From the NCBI GenBank assembly GCA_945862155.1, contig CAMAXJ010000010.1, positions 1 to 34,060 on the forward strand: a DNA stretch of 34,060 nucleotides. Direction: 5' to 3'. The notes under the pieces were generated by a model. The model was not told the origin of the DNA and searched no databases. It worked only from the letters and a program-made list of their open reading frames with translations. This document shows positions 5,759-10,772 of this stretch, in pieces. The position numbers and the translations under genes are program-made. This DNA comes from Rhodoluna limnophila. GTDB taxonomy: Bacteria; Actinomycetota; Actinomycetes; Actinomycetales; Microbacteriaceae. Each line of letters opens with the position of its first letter. Within the stretch, counting starts at the first letter, position 1.

Positions 5759-6418
5759 GTGAATGAGATTCTGGACTGGTTGCTTACTGGGGTATCTGGT
5801 ATCGACCCGTTATGGCGTAACTTCTTTGCAGGTCTTGCCATCATGCTCGAAACTTCATTGTTTGTTGGAATCATCGTTCCCGGCGACAGCGTAGTTTTGG
5901 TTGCCTCAACGGGAGTAGTAGACCTTCCTGACTTCTTCTGGTTGGTAGGGGCTGTTCTGGTGGGCTCAATGATTGGTGAAACCCTCGGTTTCTCTATTGG
6001 AAGACTCTTCGGCAAAAGAATTAGATCCTCCAAGTTGGGCCAGCGCTTTGGCGAGGAGAACTGGAAGCGGGCAGACATATTCGTTGAAAAGCGCGGCGGA
6101 CCAGCGGTTGCAATCTCTAGATTCCTGCCAGTTCTTCACTCGCTAGTTCCAGTGGTGGCGGGAGCCACAACCATGCGCTACAAAACCTTCATTACCTGGA
6201 CTTTTGGGGCTTGTCTGGTCTGGGCCAGCACCTACGTCGGCATCGGATACATCGCTAAAGCCAGCTACCAAGAAGTTGCCTCAAGCTTCAAATTTGGCGC
6301 CCTGGCCTTTGTTGGCGTTTTGGCCATTTTTATCCTGGTTATTCACCTTGCCAAGACCAAGATCTCCAAGGTTGCCGACCAGATGATCGACGAAGAGATC
6401 AACAAAACCAATAAATAG
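5759..6418 (+). CDS. DedA family membrane protein (SNARE-associated/VTT domain)
   Basis: 219 aa; VGIIVPGDSVVLVAS, GSMIGETLGFSIGRLFGKRI, ISRFLPVLHSLVPVVAGATTMRYKTF; GTG start. Confidence 0.93.
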   Translation: MNEILDWLLTGVSGIDPLWRNFFAGLAIMLETSLFVGIIVPGDSVVLVASTGVVDLPDFFWLVGAVLVGSMIGETLGFSIGRLFGKRIRSSKLGQRFGEENWKRADIFVEKRGGPAVAISRFLPVLHSLVPVVAGATTMRYKTFITWTFGACLVWASTYVGIGYIAKASYQEVASSFKFGALAFVGVLAIFILVIHLAKTKISKVADQMIDEEINKTNK

Positions 6419-6467: not shown

Positions 6468-6497
6468 TGATTATTCGAACAAGTGTTCGAATAATCA
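6468..6497. promoter_or_regulatory. LexA/SOS box
   Basis: TGATTATTCGAAC-AAGT-GTTCGAATAATCA; contains exact actinobacterial/Gram-positive-type TCGAAC-N4-GTTCGA; about 20 bp upstream of the DUF6504-dnaE2 unit. Confidence 0.93.
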
Positions 6498-6516
6498 GCC
6501 GTTTATGGGGAAGTTC

Positions 6517-6801
6517 ATGATTGCAGTCGACGAAAACGTCAAGGTTCTTACCAACCAACAAGGAGAGCCGGTTCGCTTCAGCTGGCGAAATGGCAGCTAC
6601 CAGGTCACCTCACGCCCTGAGCGTTGGTTTTCAAGAAAGCCCTGGTGGCTAGAAGCCAGCCGAGCCCAGCGCGGCATTGGATCAGAGGTTTTAGAAGTTG
6701 AGATGTGGCGAATAACTGCCGCCAAAGGAGTCAACTCCCCCAGTGAATTTGAACTACTTCACAGCAATGACCGCTGGCAATTGGTTCGAATCTTTGGCTA
6801 A
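6517..6801 (+). CDS. DUF6504 family protein (dnaE2-associated)
   Basis: PVRFSWRNGSYQVTSRPERWFSRKPWWLEASRAQRG..VEMWRITAA resembles the DUF6504 proteins adjacent to actinobacterial imuB/dnaE2; internal ATG at 6517 has a better-spaced GGGGAAG than the 6505 ATG in the ORF track. Confidence 0.85.
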   Translation: MIAVDENVKVLTNQQGEPVRFSWRNGSYQVTSRPERWFSRKPWWLEASRAQRGIGSEVLEVEMWRITAAKGVNSPSEFELLHSNDRWQLVRIFG

Positions 6802-6803
6802 AT

Positions 6804-9800
6804 ATGTCCTTTACTCACCTGAACGTCTCGTCGGCCTACTCGTTTCATTTTGGAACAGCTAAGCCTGAGAAGCTAACCCAAGCTGCTGCAAGCTTTGGTC
6901 AGGATGCGCTGGCTATAACCGATATGAACGGTCTTTACGGAGCAGTGAAACATATCGGGTCGTGTCTAGATAAAAACATCAGTCCAATAGTTGGGGTTCG
7001 ACTGGAGGTCCAAAACCGGGGCATTGTTACAATCCTGGCTAAGGGGCATAACAAAGGAACAGGCTGGGCAGCTCTTTGCAAGATAGTTTCAAAAGCCCAA
7101 AGCAAATCAAAAAAAGAAATAGCCATCACAGAAAAGGATCTATCGGAACTTATAGCTACCGATGGAAAACCCAACTGCACTATCTTGCTGGGACCCGACT
7201 CTGATTTTGGTAGGGCAGTTATTGATTCCAACGCGACCGTTTCTGCAAAAAAGCTCTTGGCTTGGCAGGAGCTAATTCCAGTTAGCGAATGCTTAAGTGT
7301 AGAAATTGTTTCTCACCTAACTGAGCCTGGTACAAACTACTCGACCCTGCAGGCTAAAAGAATGTTGCAGTTGGCAATTACCTTAGGAGTTAGAGCCGTG
7401 ATAACAAACGCGGTTCGCTATCTGGAGCCAGATGATGCGCTAACCGGAGATGTTCTAGATGCCGCAAGGCACCTAGAGCCACTTGGGATCTTTACCCCTC
7501 AACCCAATGCCCAGGCATGGCTCAAGCCCGAATCGCTGATGAACAAGCTCGCAGTTGAGATAACACAAAGCCAAGAGCTAGCAGCCACCCTTATGAAAAA
7601 TACCGAGGAATTAGCCAATAGCCTTCGGCTTGACCCGGTTAGTGACTGCGACTGGTCAAGACCTAAAACCCCAGAGAAATCAGCTCTCGGCATTGAAGGA
7701 AATCCTTTTGAGGTGCTCTGGCAAAAAGCTCACGCTGGCATTAGCTGGCGCTACCCAAATCTTTCAGACAACAAGCTGCTTCCGGTTAGGCATCGACTAC
7801 ATCAAGAGCTAATAACAATCAACAAACTTGGCTTTGCCACCTACTTTCTAACCGTGGCCGATGTTGCCCAGATGATTCGAGATATGCGAATTCGAACAGC
7901 TGCTAGAGGTTCAGGTGCTGGGTCACTAACAAATTACCTACTTGGTATTAGCGGAGTTGATCCGATTGAGCACGATCTGCTGTTTGAAAGATTCCTGAGC
8001 ACCGAGCGTTCCAGTCTTCCTGATATCGACATCGATGTTGAATCAGCCAGAAGGCATGATATTTATCGAGCAATCTTTAAGCGCTACGGTGGCAATCGCG
8101 TAACGCTGCTTTCGATGCAATCCACCTACCGCGGCCGAGGTGCGGTTAGAGATGGCGGCTTGGCACTTGGCTTTGAAGAAGATCAGATCGATGAGATTGC
8201 CAAAAGCATTTGGCGCTTTAGTGCTAGAAACTTTCGAGGCATGCTAGGACAAAAGCCCGAACTTCAAAAACTAGCCCAACAGCTTGAACATGATCGAAGA
8301 CTAAACCTGCTTGTCGATGTTACTGAGCGCCTCGATAGACTGCCTAGGCACATCTCGATGCATCCCTGCGGTGTGATTCTAGGAAACGAAAATCTTTTAT
8401 CTTTGACACCAGTTGAACCAAGCGGTTTAGGGCTACCGATGAGTCAGTTCGATAAGGACGATATGGACCCGATGGGAATGCTCAAACTAGACATTCTTGG
8501 AGTGCGGATGCAATCCAGCATGGCCTACGCAATTAGAGAAATAGAACGCGTGTCTGGAGAAGTTATTGATCTTGACTCAATCGCACGCGACGATAAGGAA
8601 ACCTTCAGGCAAATCAGGACCACCAACACCCTCGGTGTTTTTCAAATCGAGAGTCCAGGCCAGCGAGAGCTAACTGGCAAGCACCAACCAACTGAGTTCA
8701 ATGACCTAACAATCCAGATTTCACTATTTAGGCCAGGTCCGATGAAAGGCAACATGATTGCCCCATACCTTGATGGCCGGCATGGTTTTGTAAAGCCCGA
8801 CCTGATTCATCCGGATTTGGCTCCGATTCTGACATCAACTCAGGGTGTTGTGATATTCCACGAGCAGGTGCTGAAGATATTGAACGTGATGACCGGGTGC
8901 TCGCTTGCCAAAGCAGACGAGCTTCGAAGAACCCTAGAAAAAGACCGTGGCTTTGTTGAGAAGTTCTTTAGGCAAAACGCCACTAAGCGCGGCTATTCAA
9001 AAGCGGTTGTCGATCGAATCTGGAGCGTGCTAGAAGGCTTTGGAAGCTTTGGGTTCTGTAAAGCACACGGTGCCGCATTTGCTCTTCCCACCTACCAAAG
9101 CGCCTGGCTCAAAACCCACTACCCAACTGAGTTTCTAGCAGGTCTATTCACACATGATCCAGGGATGTATCCGAAGCGACTGCTGTTATCTGAAGCTCGA
9201 AGACTAGGGGTAAAGATACTGCCGCTTGATGTCAATAAATCCAAGGATGAGTATCTGGTTGAAAAAACCATCGATGGCACCGGTATTCGAATGGCACTAA
9301 CCGATCTGCATGGAATCTCAAACTCCGAGATAACAAGAATTATCAAGCAGGCACCTTTTATTGATTTGGCGGATTTCTACCTGCGGGCAACGCCTTCCAG
9401 GGTTACCGTAAAGCGATTAGCCCTGGTGGGGGCGCTTGATGAACTAGCCGGTGGCTCAAACGATCACACCAGAGGAGATGTCCTAGAAAGAGTTCGTCAA
9501 CTAACAGCCCTGAAGACAAAGCCAAAGCTAGATCAAAATCAGCCAATGCTGGATTTTGAAGCGAAGGAGCAAATGCCCTCTGGCTTCGCCCCAATTTCAG
9601 CAACTGGGCAAATTCAGGCAGAGCTAGATCTGCTGGGAATGGATATAACGGATCATCAATTGGCTAAGTATCAACCCATGCTGGATCAGATGGGTGTTGT
9701 TAGGTCAAATGAACTAGTTGGGTTGAGATCAAAAACCGACGTGTTGATAGCAGGAGTTAGGGTTGCAACCCAAAGCCCTCCGATGCGATCTGGCAAGCGA

Positions 9801-10034
9801 GTGGTATTTATCACTCTCGACGATGGAACTGGCTGCAGCGACGCTACTTTTTTTGATGAAGCCCAGGCTAGATCCAGTGCAGTGCTATTCAATACCAAAC
9901 TGATTTTGATCTCAGGCAAGACAAGGCGTACCGGAGTAAAAGGTGTTTCGATAATGGCCGAAAATGCCTGGGACTTAAATCAGCTCTGGCAAGAGTATCG
10001 CCAGAAAAACCAGCTAGTCGCGGTTGAAAATTGA
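6804..10034 (+). CDS. dnaE2: Error-prone DNA polymerase III alpha subunit (DnaE2/ImuC type)
   Basis: 1076 aa; PHP-like N-terminus, PDIDIDVESARRHD catalytic motif, MLKLDILGVRMQ, HISMHPCGVIL; next to SOS box and DUF6504. Confidence 0.9.
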   Translation: MSFTHLNVSSAYSFHFGTAKPEKLTQAAASFGQDALAITDMNGLYGAVKHIGSCLDKNISPIVGVRLEVQNRGIVTILAKGHNKGTGWAALCKIVSKAQSKSKKEIAITEKDLSELIATDGKPNCTILLGPDSDFGRAVIDSNATVSAKKLLAWQELIPVSECLSVEIVSHLTEPGTNYSTLQAKRMLQLAITLGVRAVITNAVRYLEPDDALTGDVLDAARHLEPLGIFTPQPNAQAWLKPESLMNKLAVEITQSQELAATLMKNTEELANSLRLDPVSDCDWSRPKTPEKSALGIEGNPFEVLWQKAHAGISWRYPNLSDNKLLPVRHRLHQELITINKLGFATYFLTVADVAQMIRDMRIRTAARGSGAGSLTNYLLGISGVDPIEHDLLFERFLSTERSSLPDIDIDVESARRHDIYRAIFKRYGGNRVTLLSMQSTYRGRGAVRDGGLALGFEEDQIDEIAKSIWRFSARNFRGMLGQKPELQKLAQQLEHDRRLNLLVDVTERLDRLPRHISMHPCGVILGNENLLSLTPVEPSGLGLPMSQFDKDDMDPMGMLKLDILGVRMQSSMAYAIREIERVSGEVIDLDSIARDDKETFRQIRTTNTLGVFQIESPGQRELTGKHQPTEFNDLTIQISLFRPGPMKGNMIAPYLDGRHGFVKPDLIHPDLAPILTSTQGVVIFHEQVLKILNVMTGCSLAKADELRRTLEKDRGFVEKFFRQNATKRGYSKAVVDRIWSVLEGFGSFGFCKAHGAAFALPTYQSAWLKTHYPTEFLAGLFTHDPGMYPKRLLLSEARRLGVKILPLDVNKSKDEYLVEKTIDGTGIRMALTDLHGISNSEITRIIKQAPFIDLADFYLRATPSRVTVKRLALVGALDELAGGSNDHTRGDVLERVRQLTALKTKPKLDQNQPMLDFEAKEQMPSGFAPISATGQIQAELDLLGMDITDHQLAKYQPMLDQMGVVRSNELVGLRSKTDVLIAGVRVATQSPPMRSGKRVVFITLDDGTGCSDATFFDEAQARSSAVLFNTKLILISGKTRRTGVKGVSIMAENAWDLNQLWQEYRQKNQLVAVEN

Positions 10035-10772
10035 CAGCAGTCGAAGAATCTCGACGTATAGCCAGATAAGAGTCACTGCAAGGCCGAAAGCTGCACGCCA
10101 CTCCATCTCAACTGGCCACTTGTCACGAGAACCAACCATGATGGTTTCAAAATCCAAGTTCAGAGTGAATGCAGCCAGACCAGCACCAACTAGCCCAGCA
10201 AGCCAACCGAATGCTGAGCCGTAAACGCCAGCTCCGCCAGAGATTAGGACAAAACCAATGTTGATTACTGCAAAGATCATGTATCCAACAATTGCGAAAG
10301 TCATGATCCTGGTAAATCTGGCATCGACCTTAATCCAGCCAAAGCGGTAGGCAGCGAACATCGCACCTGCGGTAGTCAAGGTAGCCAAAACAGCCGACTG
10401 AACAATTCCTGGGTACATTGCCTCAAACATTGAAGAGATTCCACCAAGGAATACTCCCTCAACAGCTGCGTAAGCCACGATTACCGCAGGCATAACCTTC
10501 TTTGAAAAAGTGATCCACAAAGCAAGACCTAGTCCAACCAGCATCGCTGGAAAAACCAGTCCCTGCAATGGAGTGAAGAACCAGGTTGCTGCGGCAGTTG
10601 CAAGCAACACAGTGAAGATGGCGATGACCTTGCCAGAAGTTCCCTCAACGGTCATTGGCTCAGACTTGGCAGCAATCTTGGCAAATTCTGCATCGACTAG
10701 TTCCTGAGGAACCTCGCGAGCAGCCTGAAGTCCGGTCTGCATTGAGCGATTGAATACTGGGTTATGGGACAC
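10014..10772 (-). CDS. Bax inhibitor-1/YccA family membrane protein
   Basis: 252 aa, about seven TM segments, LNLDFETI and C-terminal YVEILRLLSIF motifs; GTG start. Confidence 0.93.
   Translation of the reverse strand: MSHNPVFNRSMQTGLQAAREVPQELVDAEFAKIAAKSEPMTVEGTSGKVIAIFTVLLATAAATWFFTPLQGLVFPAMLVGLGLALWITFSKKVMPAVIVAYAAVEGVFLGGISSMFEAMYPGIVQSAVLATLTTAGAMFAAYRFGWIKVDARFTRIMTFAIVGYMIFAVINIGFVLISGGAGVYGSAFGWLAGLVGAGLAAFTLNLDFETIMVGSRDKWPVEMEWRAAFGLAVTLIWLYVEILRLLSIFNRD

Follow-up and report, generated by a model that had tools for sequence, protein, structure and literature searches.

The 34,060-nucleotide stretch of Rhodoluna limnophila DNA analysed here (contig CAMAXJ010000010.1 of assembly GCA_945862155.1, positions 1 to 34,060; hereafter the window) contains a two-gene operon behind a LexA/SOS operator, in which a small gene for a DUF6504 protein precedes a gene for a second DnaE, a C-family DNA polymerase. 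The DUF6504 gene (6517–6801, forward strand) encodes 94 residues, and its product, assigned by a profile match to PF20114 and an AlphaFold2 model, is probably a standalone ImuB-C domain. The dnaE gene (6804–10034, forward strand) encodes 1076 residues with matches to PF07733, PF17657, PF02811, PF14579 and PF01336, and its product is of the DnaE2B type, as discussed below. A Shine-Dalgarno-like GGGGAAG, read directly from the forward strand at 6507–6513, lies upstream of the ATG at 6517 with 3 bases between them, and because it precedes that codon, a start at 6517 is likelier than one at the alternative in-frame ATG at 6505. The dnaE start (6804) comes 2 bases after the DUF6504 stop codon (6799–6801), and therefore the two genes are probably translationally coupled.

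The LexA Box and the Setting of the Operon

The operator, TGATTATTCGAACAAGTGTTCGAATAATCA at 6468–6497, is an SOS-like palindrome with 13-base arms and 28 of its 30 positions symmetric, and its core, TCGAACAAGTGTTCGA at 6475–6490, has the form TCGAACN4GTTCGA. That core is the single perfect occurrence of this consensus in the source assembly (1.17 Mb, 63 contigs, 93% complete). Five further sites have one mismatch, two of which sit upstream of lexA and recA; lexA itself encodes a LexA of 223 residues and has its box ~140 bases before the ATG. Of 92 distinct loci surveyed, 84 have a LexA-type box upstream of DUF6504 with no more than two mismatches, and 72 have one with no more than a single mismatch, compared to 0.9 and 0.07%, respectively, of shuffled regions. 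There is thus a conserved LexA box at the promoter region, in a genome that has both LexA and RecA, and on the basis of that box the operon is most likely under LexA control. Sigma-70 promoters and terminators were predicted no more often than in shuffled sequence, with none of the promoters adjoining the SOS box, and PADLOC returned no defence-system match. The neighbour of the SOS box on its other side is a DedA gene (VTT domain, PF09335) that ends at 6418. Downstream, a convergent Bax-inhibitor-like gene (10014–10772) shares 21 bases (10014–10034) with dnaE at their 3' ends. The features named in the original prediction, made from the letters of the window, all lie where it had placed them.

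Absence of ImuA, ImuB and Y-Family Polymerases

ImuB is a catalytically inactive Y-family protein that carries a clamp motif, and ImuA (or ImuA') is an inactive homologue of RecA. The window has no imuA or imuB, as had been predicted, and this absence extends to the rest of the source genome and to two complete genomes from its genus, each a single contig (G010, 1,430,433 bases, and G092, 1,398,704 bases). Neither PF00817 (Y-family) nor a full-length ImuB profile had a match in the whole source genome, in G010 or G092, or in two complete genomes from another genus that has the nearest polymerases (G013 and G095). These four comparison genomes carry LexA, RecA, DnaE1, a second DnaE and DUF6504. 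No RecA paralogue of ImuA size was found in the source genome or in the complete same-genus genomes; their second, weak match to PF00154 (RecA) falls in an open frame of ~450 residues which, to judge from its length, is likely to be a RadA-sized protein rather than an ImuA-sized one. DUF6504-dnaE2B seems to be the only candidate translesion polymerase system found in these streamlined genomes.

The original prediction had offered relocation of imuB as one of its options, and had named an imuA/imuB pair elsewhere in the genome, also behind a LexA box, as the finding that would point to simple relocation; searches with PF00817 and the ImuB profile recovered no such pair, and no ImuB, Y-family polymerase or ImuA-sized RecA paralogue was found in the source genome or in the complete genomes of its genus. 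A full ImuA-ImuB-DnaE2 mutasome whose other genes lie at a distance or in an assembly gap is suggested by the state of the assembly, which is incomplete and in many contigs, and by the existence of split cassettes in mycobacteria. However, G010, G092 and the two genomes from the other genus keep the pair without imuA and imuB, which refutes this explanation at the level of the genus, the window polymerase falls outside the ImuB-linked clade, and the second RecA-type match has the size of RadA. We consider relocation very improbable. The original prediction had also given the place between imuB and dnaE2 as the usual one for DUF6504, an arrangement that was not seen in the Microbacteriaceae loci read. 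Three ImuA-ImuB-DnaE2A loci (L053, L054 and L055) have a separate DUF6504 gene upstream of imuA, though their ImuB has its own C-terminal domain, and the remaining ImuB loci read in this family had no DUF6504 near by.

The Polymerase Belongs to a Separate Clade

The window polymerase scored 624 bits against the NCBIfam model for DnaE1 and 621 bits against that for 'error-prone DNA polymerase'. Since these scores are approximately equal and below both cut-offs, the plain name 'dnaE2' given to the gene in the original prediction is imprecise. The second DnaEs of Microbacteriaceae are of two sorts. Those of the window sort are 50–71% identical to the window protein, and the ImuB-linked DnaE2s are ~31–37% identical to it over the matched stretches, with DnaE1 at ~31%. 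In a maximum likelihood tree of 49 proteins, DnaE1, the ImuB-linked DnaE2A and DnaE2B each formed one clade with a Shimodaira-Hasegawa-like approximate likelihood ratio test (SH-aLRT) support of 100. Streptomyces plasmid DnaE2s encoded beside a Y-family homologue clustered with the window sort, as did Arthrobacter DnaE2s. By its placement in the tree the window polymerase is a match to the DnaE2B described by Timinskas et al. 2026 (PMC12926913). It belongs to a different clade and is not an ImuB-linked DnaE2 minus its partners, so the operon probably did not arise by reduction within this lineage.

An alignment of 103 DnaE2B, 10 DnaE2A and 9 DnaE1 rows located the catalytic residues Asp407 and Asp409 (within PDIDID, codons at 8022–8030, forward strand) and Asp563 (within LKLDILG, codon at 8490–8492, forward strand), which are invariant in every row of all three groups. 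The metal ligands of the DnaE1 PHP domain, in contrast, are mostly lost, with H11 replaced by N, H45 by M, E70 by R and H223 by R in the window protein (DnaE1 numbering). The aspartate triad of an active polymerase is therefore kept and the PHP proofreading site is lost, and from the loss of these proofreading residues we infer that synthesis by DnaE2B is error-prone. The window polymerase ends in EYRQKNQLVAVEN, which has no SRDF[H/R] motif. This C-terminal motif is reported in ~77% of DnaE2s, and among the DnaE2A tails SRDFR was present in 6 of the 10 rows and a close variant in three more.

A further motif may give the polymerase access to the sliding clamp. Between the helix-hairpin-helix (HhH) and oligonucleotide-binding (OB) domains, residues 913–918 (9540–9557, forward strand) read QPMLDF, a clamp-binding-like motif whose position corresponds to that of QVDLF in DnaE1. 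A motif of the Q-x-x-L type occurs at the HhH/OB junction in 91 of the 103 DnaE2B rows, compared to 8% of random 40-residue stretches. Some relatives have QLPLF at this position, which resembles QLPLWG, the clamp-binding motif of mycobacterial ImuB.

Distribution of the Pair

Our survey covered 80 named loci retrieved by polymerase profile; DUF6504 lay beside the polymerase gene or close to it in 77, and an ImuA or ImuB profile match in none. Among 110 Microbacteriaceae genomes, this polymerase was identified in 24, all of which have DUF6504 near by. ImuB is present in only two of those 24 genomes versus 74 of the 86 without the polymerase (Fisher p = 1.5e-12, a value that is indicative only as related genomes are not independent). 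A polymerase match in another genome (G107) that is 29% identical and lies beside imuB was counted as an ImuB-linked DnaE2 and is not among the 24. The pair was found in ~17 of the 85 Microbacteriaceae genera sampled, and also in Micrococcaceae, Propionibacteriaceae and on plasmids. One of the two genomes with ImuB (G077) has four DnaEs (C2:5487–7880, C2:348332–351646, C1:93035–96196 and C3:742342–744621), namely DnaE1, an ImuB-linked DnaE2A and two DnaE2Bs, each DnaE2B with its own DUF6504.

In ten loci, a set in which one genome is counted twice, DUF6504 and dnaE2B are separated, mostly by 2.6–5.8 kb. A box of dnaE2B's own with at most one mismatch was identified in seven of the ten, including those of Frondihabitans and Frigoribacterium, and nothing else in these data speaks as strongly for a shared function as the keeping of LexA boxes on both genes after they came apart. 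This bears directly on the proposal that DnaE2B acts on its own, or together with RecA or the DnaE1 holoenzyme, and that DUF6504 is a separate SOS protein which happens to share its promoter. That the polymerase has a clamp-like motif of its own is consistent with such independence, as is the report of a few DnaE2Bs without any found partner (Timinskas et al. 2026, PMC12926913). The boxes retained by the separated genes in most of the loci checked argue against it, however, as does the persistence of the pairing on plasmids, in three families and in many genera, and we regard it as improbable. In Frondihabitans and Clavibacter-type loci, the genes that separate DUF6504 from dnaE2B were considered as substitutes for ImuB and rejected, as no ImuB or ImuA profile match was found there; the single gene that recurs in this position resembles, by eye, a family 15 glycoside hydrolase.

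The pair is kept in every Rhodoluna/Aquiluna-type genome examined. This has to be set against the possibility that the operon is what is left of an ImuA-ImuB-DnaE2 cassette, decaying and without function as the genome shrinks, a possibility raised by the streamlined size of these genomes (1.2–1.4 Mb) and by the literature, in which DnaE2 is usually found in large genomes. Full-length open frames, invariant catalytic residues and conserved perfect SOS boxes all speak against decay, and we find it scarcely credible. In addition, a complete relative in the family with a genome of only 0.9 Mb (G015) retains RecA and DnaE1, but searches of it returned nothing for LexA, a second DnaE, DUF6504, SRAP (SOS response-associated peptidase) or a Y-family polymerase, so that the genes for SOS mutagenesis seem to have gone there as a block. 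A different state was observed at L051 (G019:C2:112000–128000), where an SRAP gene and a DUF6504 remnant are followed by a dnaE2B broken into two pieces, ~1.6 kb from each other; this is an apparent case of decay of the module in a genome without ImuB.

SRAP genes recur around the pair. In relatives (loci L032, L033, L034 and L035) one is directly upstream of DUF6504-dnaE2B, and one is close to the pair on the Agreia plasmid pCOWG (L145) and on the Arthrobacter conjugative plasmid pYA7-1a (L147). On its gene content, the plasmid-borne DUF6504-dnaE2B with SRAP is a mobile SOS mutagenesis module. In the source genome (G000:C1:36237–36878) and in G010 the SRAP gene is placed elsewhere, and the window pair adjoins DedA instead. 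Many Arthrobacter-group plasmids, often conjugative ones, encode DUF6504-like proteins annotated as 'hypothetical' (H51–H73).

DUF6504 as a Probable ImuB-C Domain

The DUF6504 protein matched PF20114 with 27.5 bits (cut-off 24.2), and its conserved aromatic and basic residues are W41, R44, W47, W48, W68, R69 and W91. AlphaFold2 modelled it as an all-beta protein of seven strands with a predicted local distance difference test (pLDDT) score of 88, and modelled ImuB-C likewise as all-beta (pLDDT 90); the two models have the same order for their last four strands and for a helical turn at the WW motif. A profile of ~100 DUF6504 sequences scored 20.4 when compared with 12 ImuB C-termini, whereas none of 60 column shuffles exceeded 16.4, and the alignment is colinear from RxxWW through to the final W...YD. 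Neither a sequence search nor a fold search found a relative of DUF6504 in the PDB, and ImuB-C is similarly reported to have no match there (Timinskas et al. 2026, PMC12926913).

ImuB-C was described by Aravind et al. 2013 (PMC3765255) as a beta-rich domain that ends ImuB and also occurs standalone, with conserved C-terminal tryptophan and basic residues. Its genes were noted in the neighbourhood of DnaE2, whether or not an inactive DinB is present, of SRAP, and of an ATP-dependent ligase. DUF6504 matches each of these traits, in its residues (W47-W48, W68-R69 and W91) and in its occurrence near DnaE2, SRAP and an ATP-dependent ligase. The last of these is on a Pseudarthrobacter plasmid, where a DUF6504-like gene (L180:4974–5297, a weak match to PF20114) has the ligase near and no dnaE close. 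Probably, DUF6504 is the standalone ImuB-C domain, an identity that the models and comparisons support and do not prove. A literature search did not find the word DUF6504, which is also not in the main text of Timinskas et al. 2026 (PMC12926913).

What such a domain does could be understood in two ways. Aravind et al. 2013 (PMC3765255) proposed for ImuB-C a role in recognition of lesions, and DUF6504 could similarly recognize DNA or lesions and so direct DnaE2B to damaged sites, instead of serving as a structural subunit on the PHP domain. The conserved aromatic and basic residues would suit that role, and so would the plasmid gene near a ligase with no close dnaE. On the other hand, published AlphaFold models set ImuB-C on DnaE2, specifically against its PHP domain, and DnaE2-[ImuB-C] complexes have been proposed (Timinskas et al. 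2026, PMC12926913), and the conserved pairing with one polymerase clade suits a dedicated partner. We judge lesion recognition as the main role to be unlikely, and the two roles are not exclusive.

A Proposed Two-Protein Mutasome

Taken together, the operon is likely to be LexA-repressed and to encode a minimal translesion polymerase, error-prone and of the DnaE2B-[ImuB-C] type. Upon DNA damage, RecA would trigger the self-cleavage of LexA, and thereby turn on the DUF6504-dnaE2B operon. DnaE2B, with intact catalytic aspartates and no PHP proofreading site, would perform the synthesis, and the 94-residue DUF6504 protein would bind to it, most likely on the PHP domain, as a counterpart of the ImuB-C beta-barrel. 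Reaching the sliding clamp by its own internal motif, the polymerase would need neither the ImuB hub nor ImuA. Part of the original prediction, of a reduced mutasome in which DUF6504 and/or DnaE2 replaces the ImuB adaptor, is retained here, as DUF6504 resembles the DnaE2-binding C-terminal domain of ImuB and the polymerase has a clamp-like motif at the position of that in DnaE1. The notion of a reduction is not retained, since the polymerase belongs to another clade than the ImuB-linked DnaE2s and the pair is not peculiar to this lineage.

Several of our observations weigh against this interpretation. Two genomes (G050 and G077) have both ImuB and DnaE2B, and therefore the exclusion between them is not absolute. 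Split loci of the Clavibacter type are without a good LexA box at dnaE itself. A Q-x-x-L motif is also found at nearly this position in 7 of 10 ImuB-linked DnaE2 rows, and because these polymerases often have one, it supports access to the clamp and is not diagnostic of DnaE2B. In absolute terms, DUF6504 and ImuB-C match only weakly (hhalign probability 6.6%), and PF20114 did not appear when ImuB proteins were scanned against Pfam at E ≤ 5, leaving the families unjoined there; since those scans gave no link, the identification depends on the profile comparison, the order of the fold and the gene context. Finally, the best match of DUF6504 among viral structures, the unnamed protein A0A6V7BBH2, was marginal (E = 0.017) and ranked only 43rd for ImuB-C, and for these reasons it was dropped as a clue to DUF6504.

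A bolder proposal is that in Rhodoluna-/Aquiluna-type bacteria DnaE2B and the 94-residue ImuB-C protein are the complete SOS translesion machine, with the clamp motif of the polymerase and without a Y-family subunit that binds RecA or ImuA. No Y-family partner bearing a RecA-NT domain was found in these genomes. This proposal is tentative, and we would put it slightly short of an even chance. If the pair works as outlined, few forms of DnaE2 mutagenesis would be smaller, and the roles of ImuB would be separated: clamp binding has apparently passed to the polymerase, binding of RecA/ImuA can apparently be dispensed with, and the C-terminal barrel is kept as a protein of its own. A two-protein mutasome would also mean that the need for a RecA-like activator, as in Pol V and the mycobacterial mutasome, is not general. 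Cultured, non-pathogenic relatives with 1.4-Mb genomes, in which no other candidate translesion polymerase was found, would make such a division of ImuB's roles testable. In addition, DUF6504, listed in Pfam as a domain of unknown function, gains a likely identity and role, and the presence of the pair in small genomes contradicts the rule that DnaE2 is a trait of large, GC-rich genomes.

Comparison with Known Systems

The arrangement is not a new type, as two papers already describe it. Aravind et al. 2013 (PMC3765255) noted a standalone ImuB-C/DnaE2 operon, and Timinskas et al. 2026 (PMC12926913) defined a DnaE2B group 'linked only to ImuB-C', with Arthrobacter alpinus as an example and DnaE2-[ImuB-C] occurring only in Actinobacteria. 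Retention of the pair with no Y-family polymerase in genomes of ~1.2–1.7 Mb was not found in the available text of either paper, nor were the LexA-box footprint including split loci, the identity of DUF6504, or the contrast with the 0.9-Mb relative. The window operon resembles the type of Timinskas et al. in having a DnaE2 outside the DnaE2A clade, a small ImuB-C-like protein as its only partner and a genome without imuA/imuB, and differs from it in that source-type genomes are without any Y-family polymerase and are small (~1.2–1.4 Mb). Chromosomal homologues of Arthrobacter belong to the same clade as the window polymerase and have DUF6504 upstream, A. alpinus itself being outside our sample. 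Aravind et al., by contrast, proposed damaged-DNA binding, and no lineage-wide count or LexA-box footprint for the pair was seen in the portion of that paper available.

The mycobacterial ImuA'-ImuB-DnaE2 mutasome similarly has a LexA-regulated C-family polymerase in an error-prone role, with ImuB-C modelled on its PHP domain, whereas the window system has no ImuA' and no ImuB hub, and its polymerase is of another clade, without the SRDF[R/H] tail and with its PHP site lost. The nearest sister polymerases (~40% identity) are those of the Streptomyces DnaE2B-iPolY(-RecA) system, represented here by plasmid copies (L146 and L179). In that system the next gene encodes a shortened Y-family homologue (IMS_C, thumb), whereas in the window the partner gene is DUF6504.

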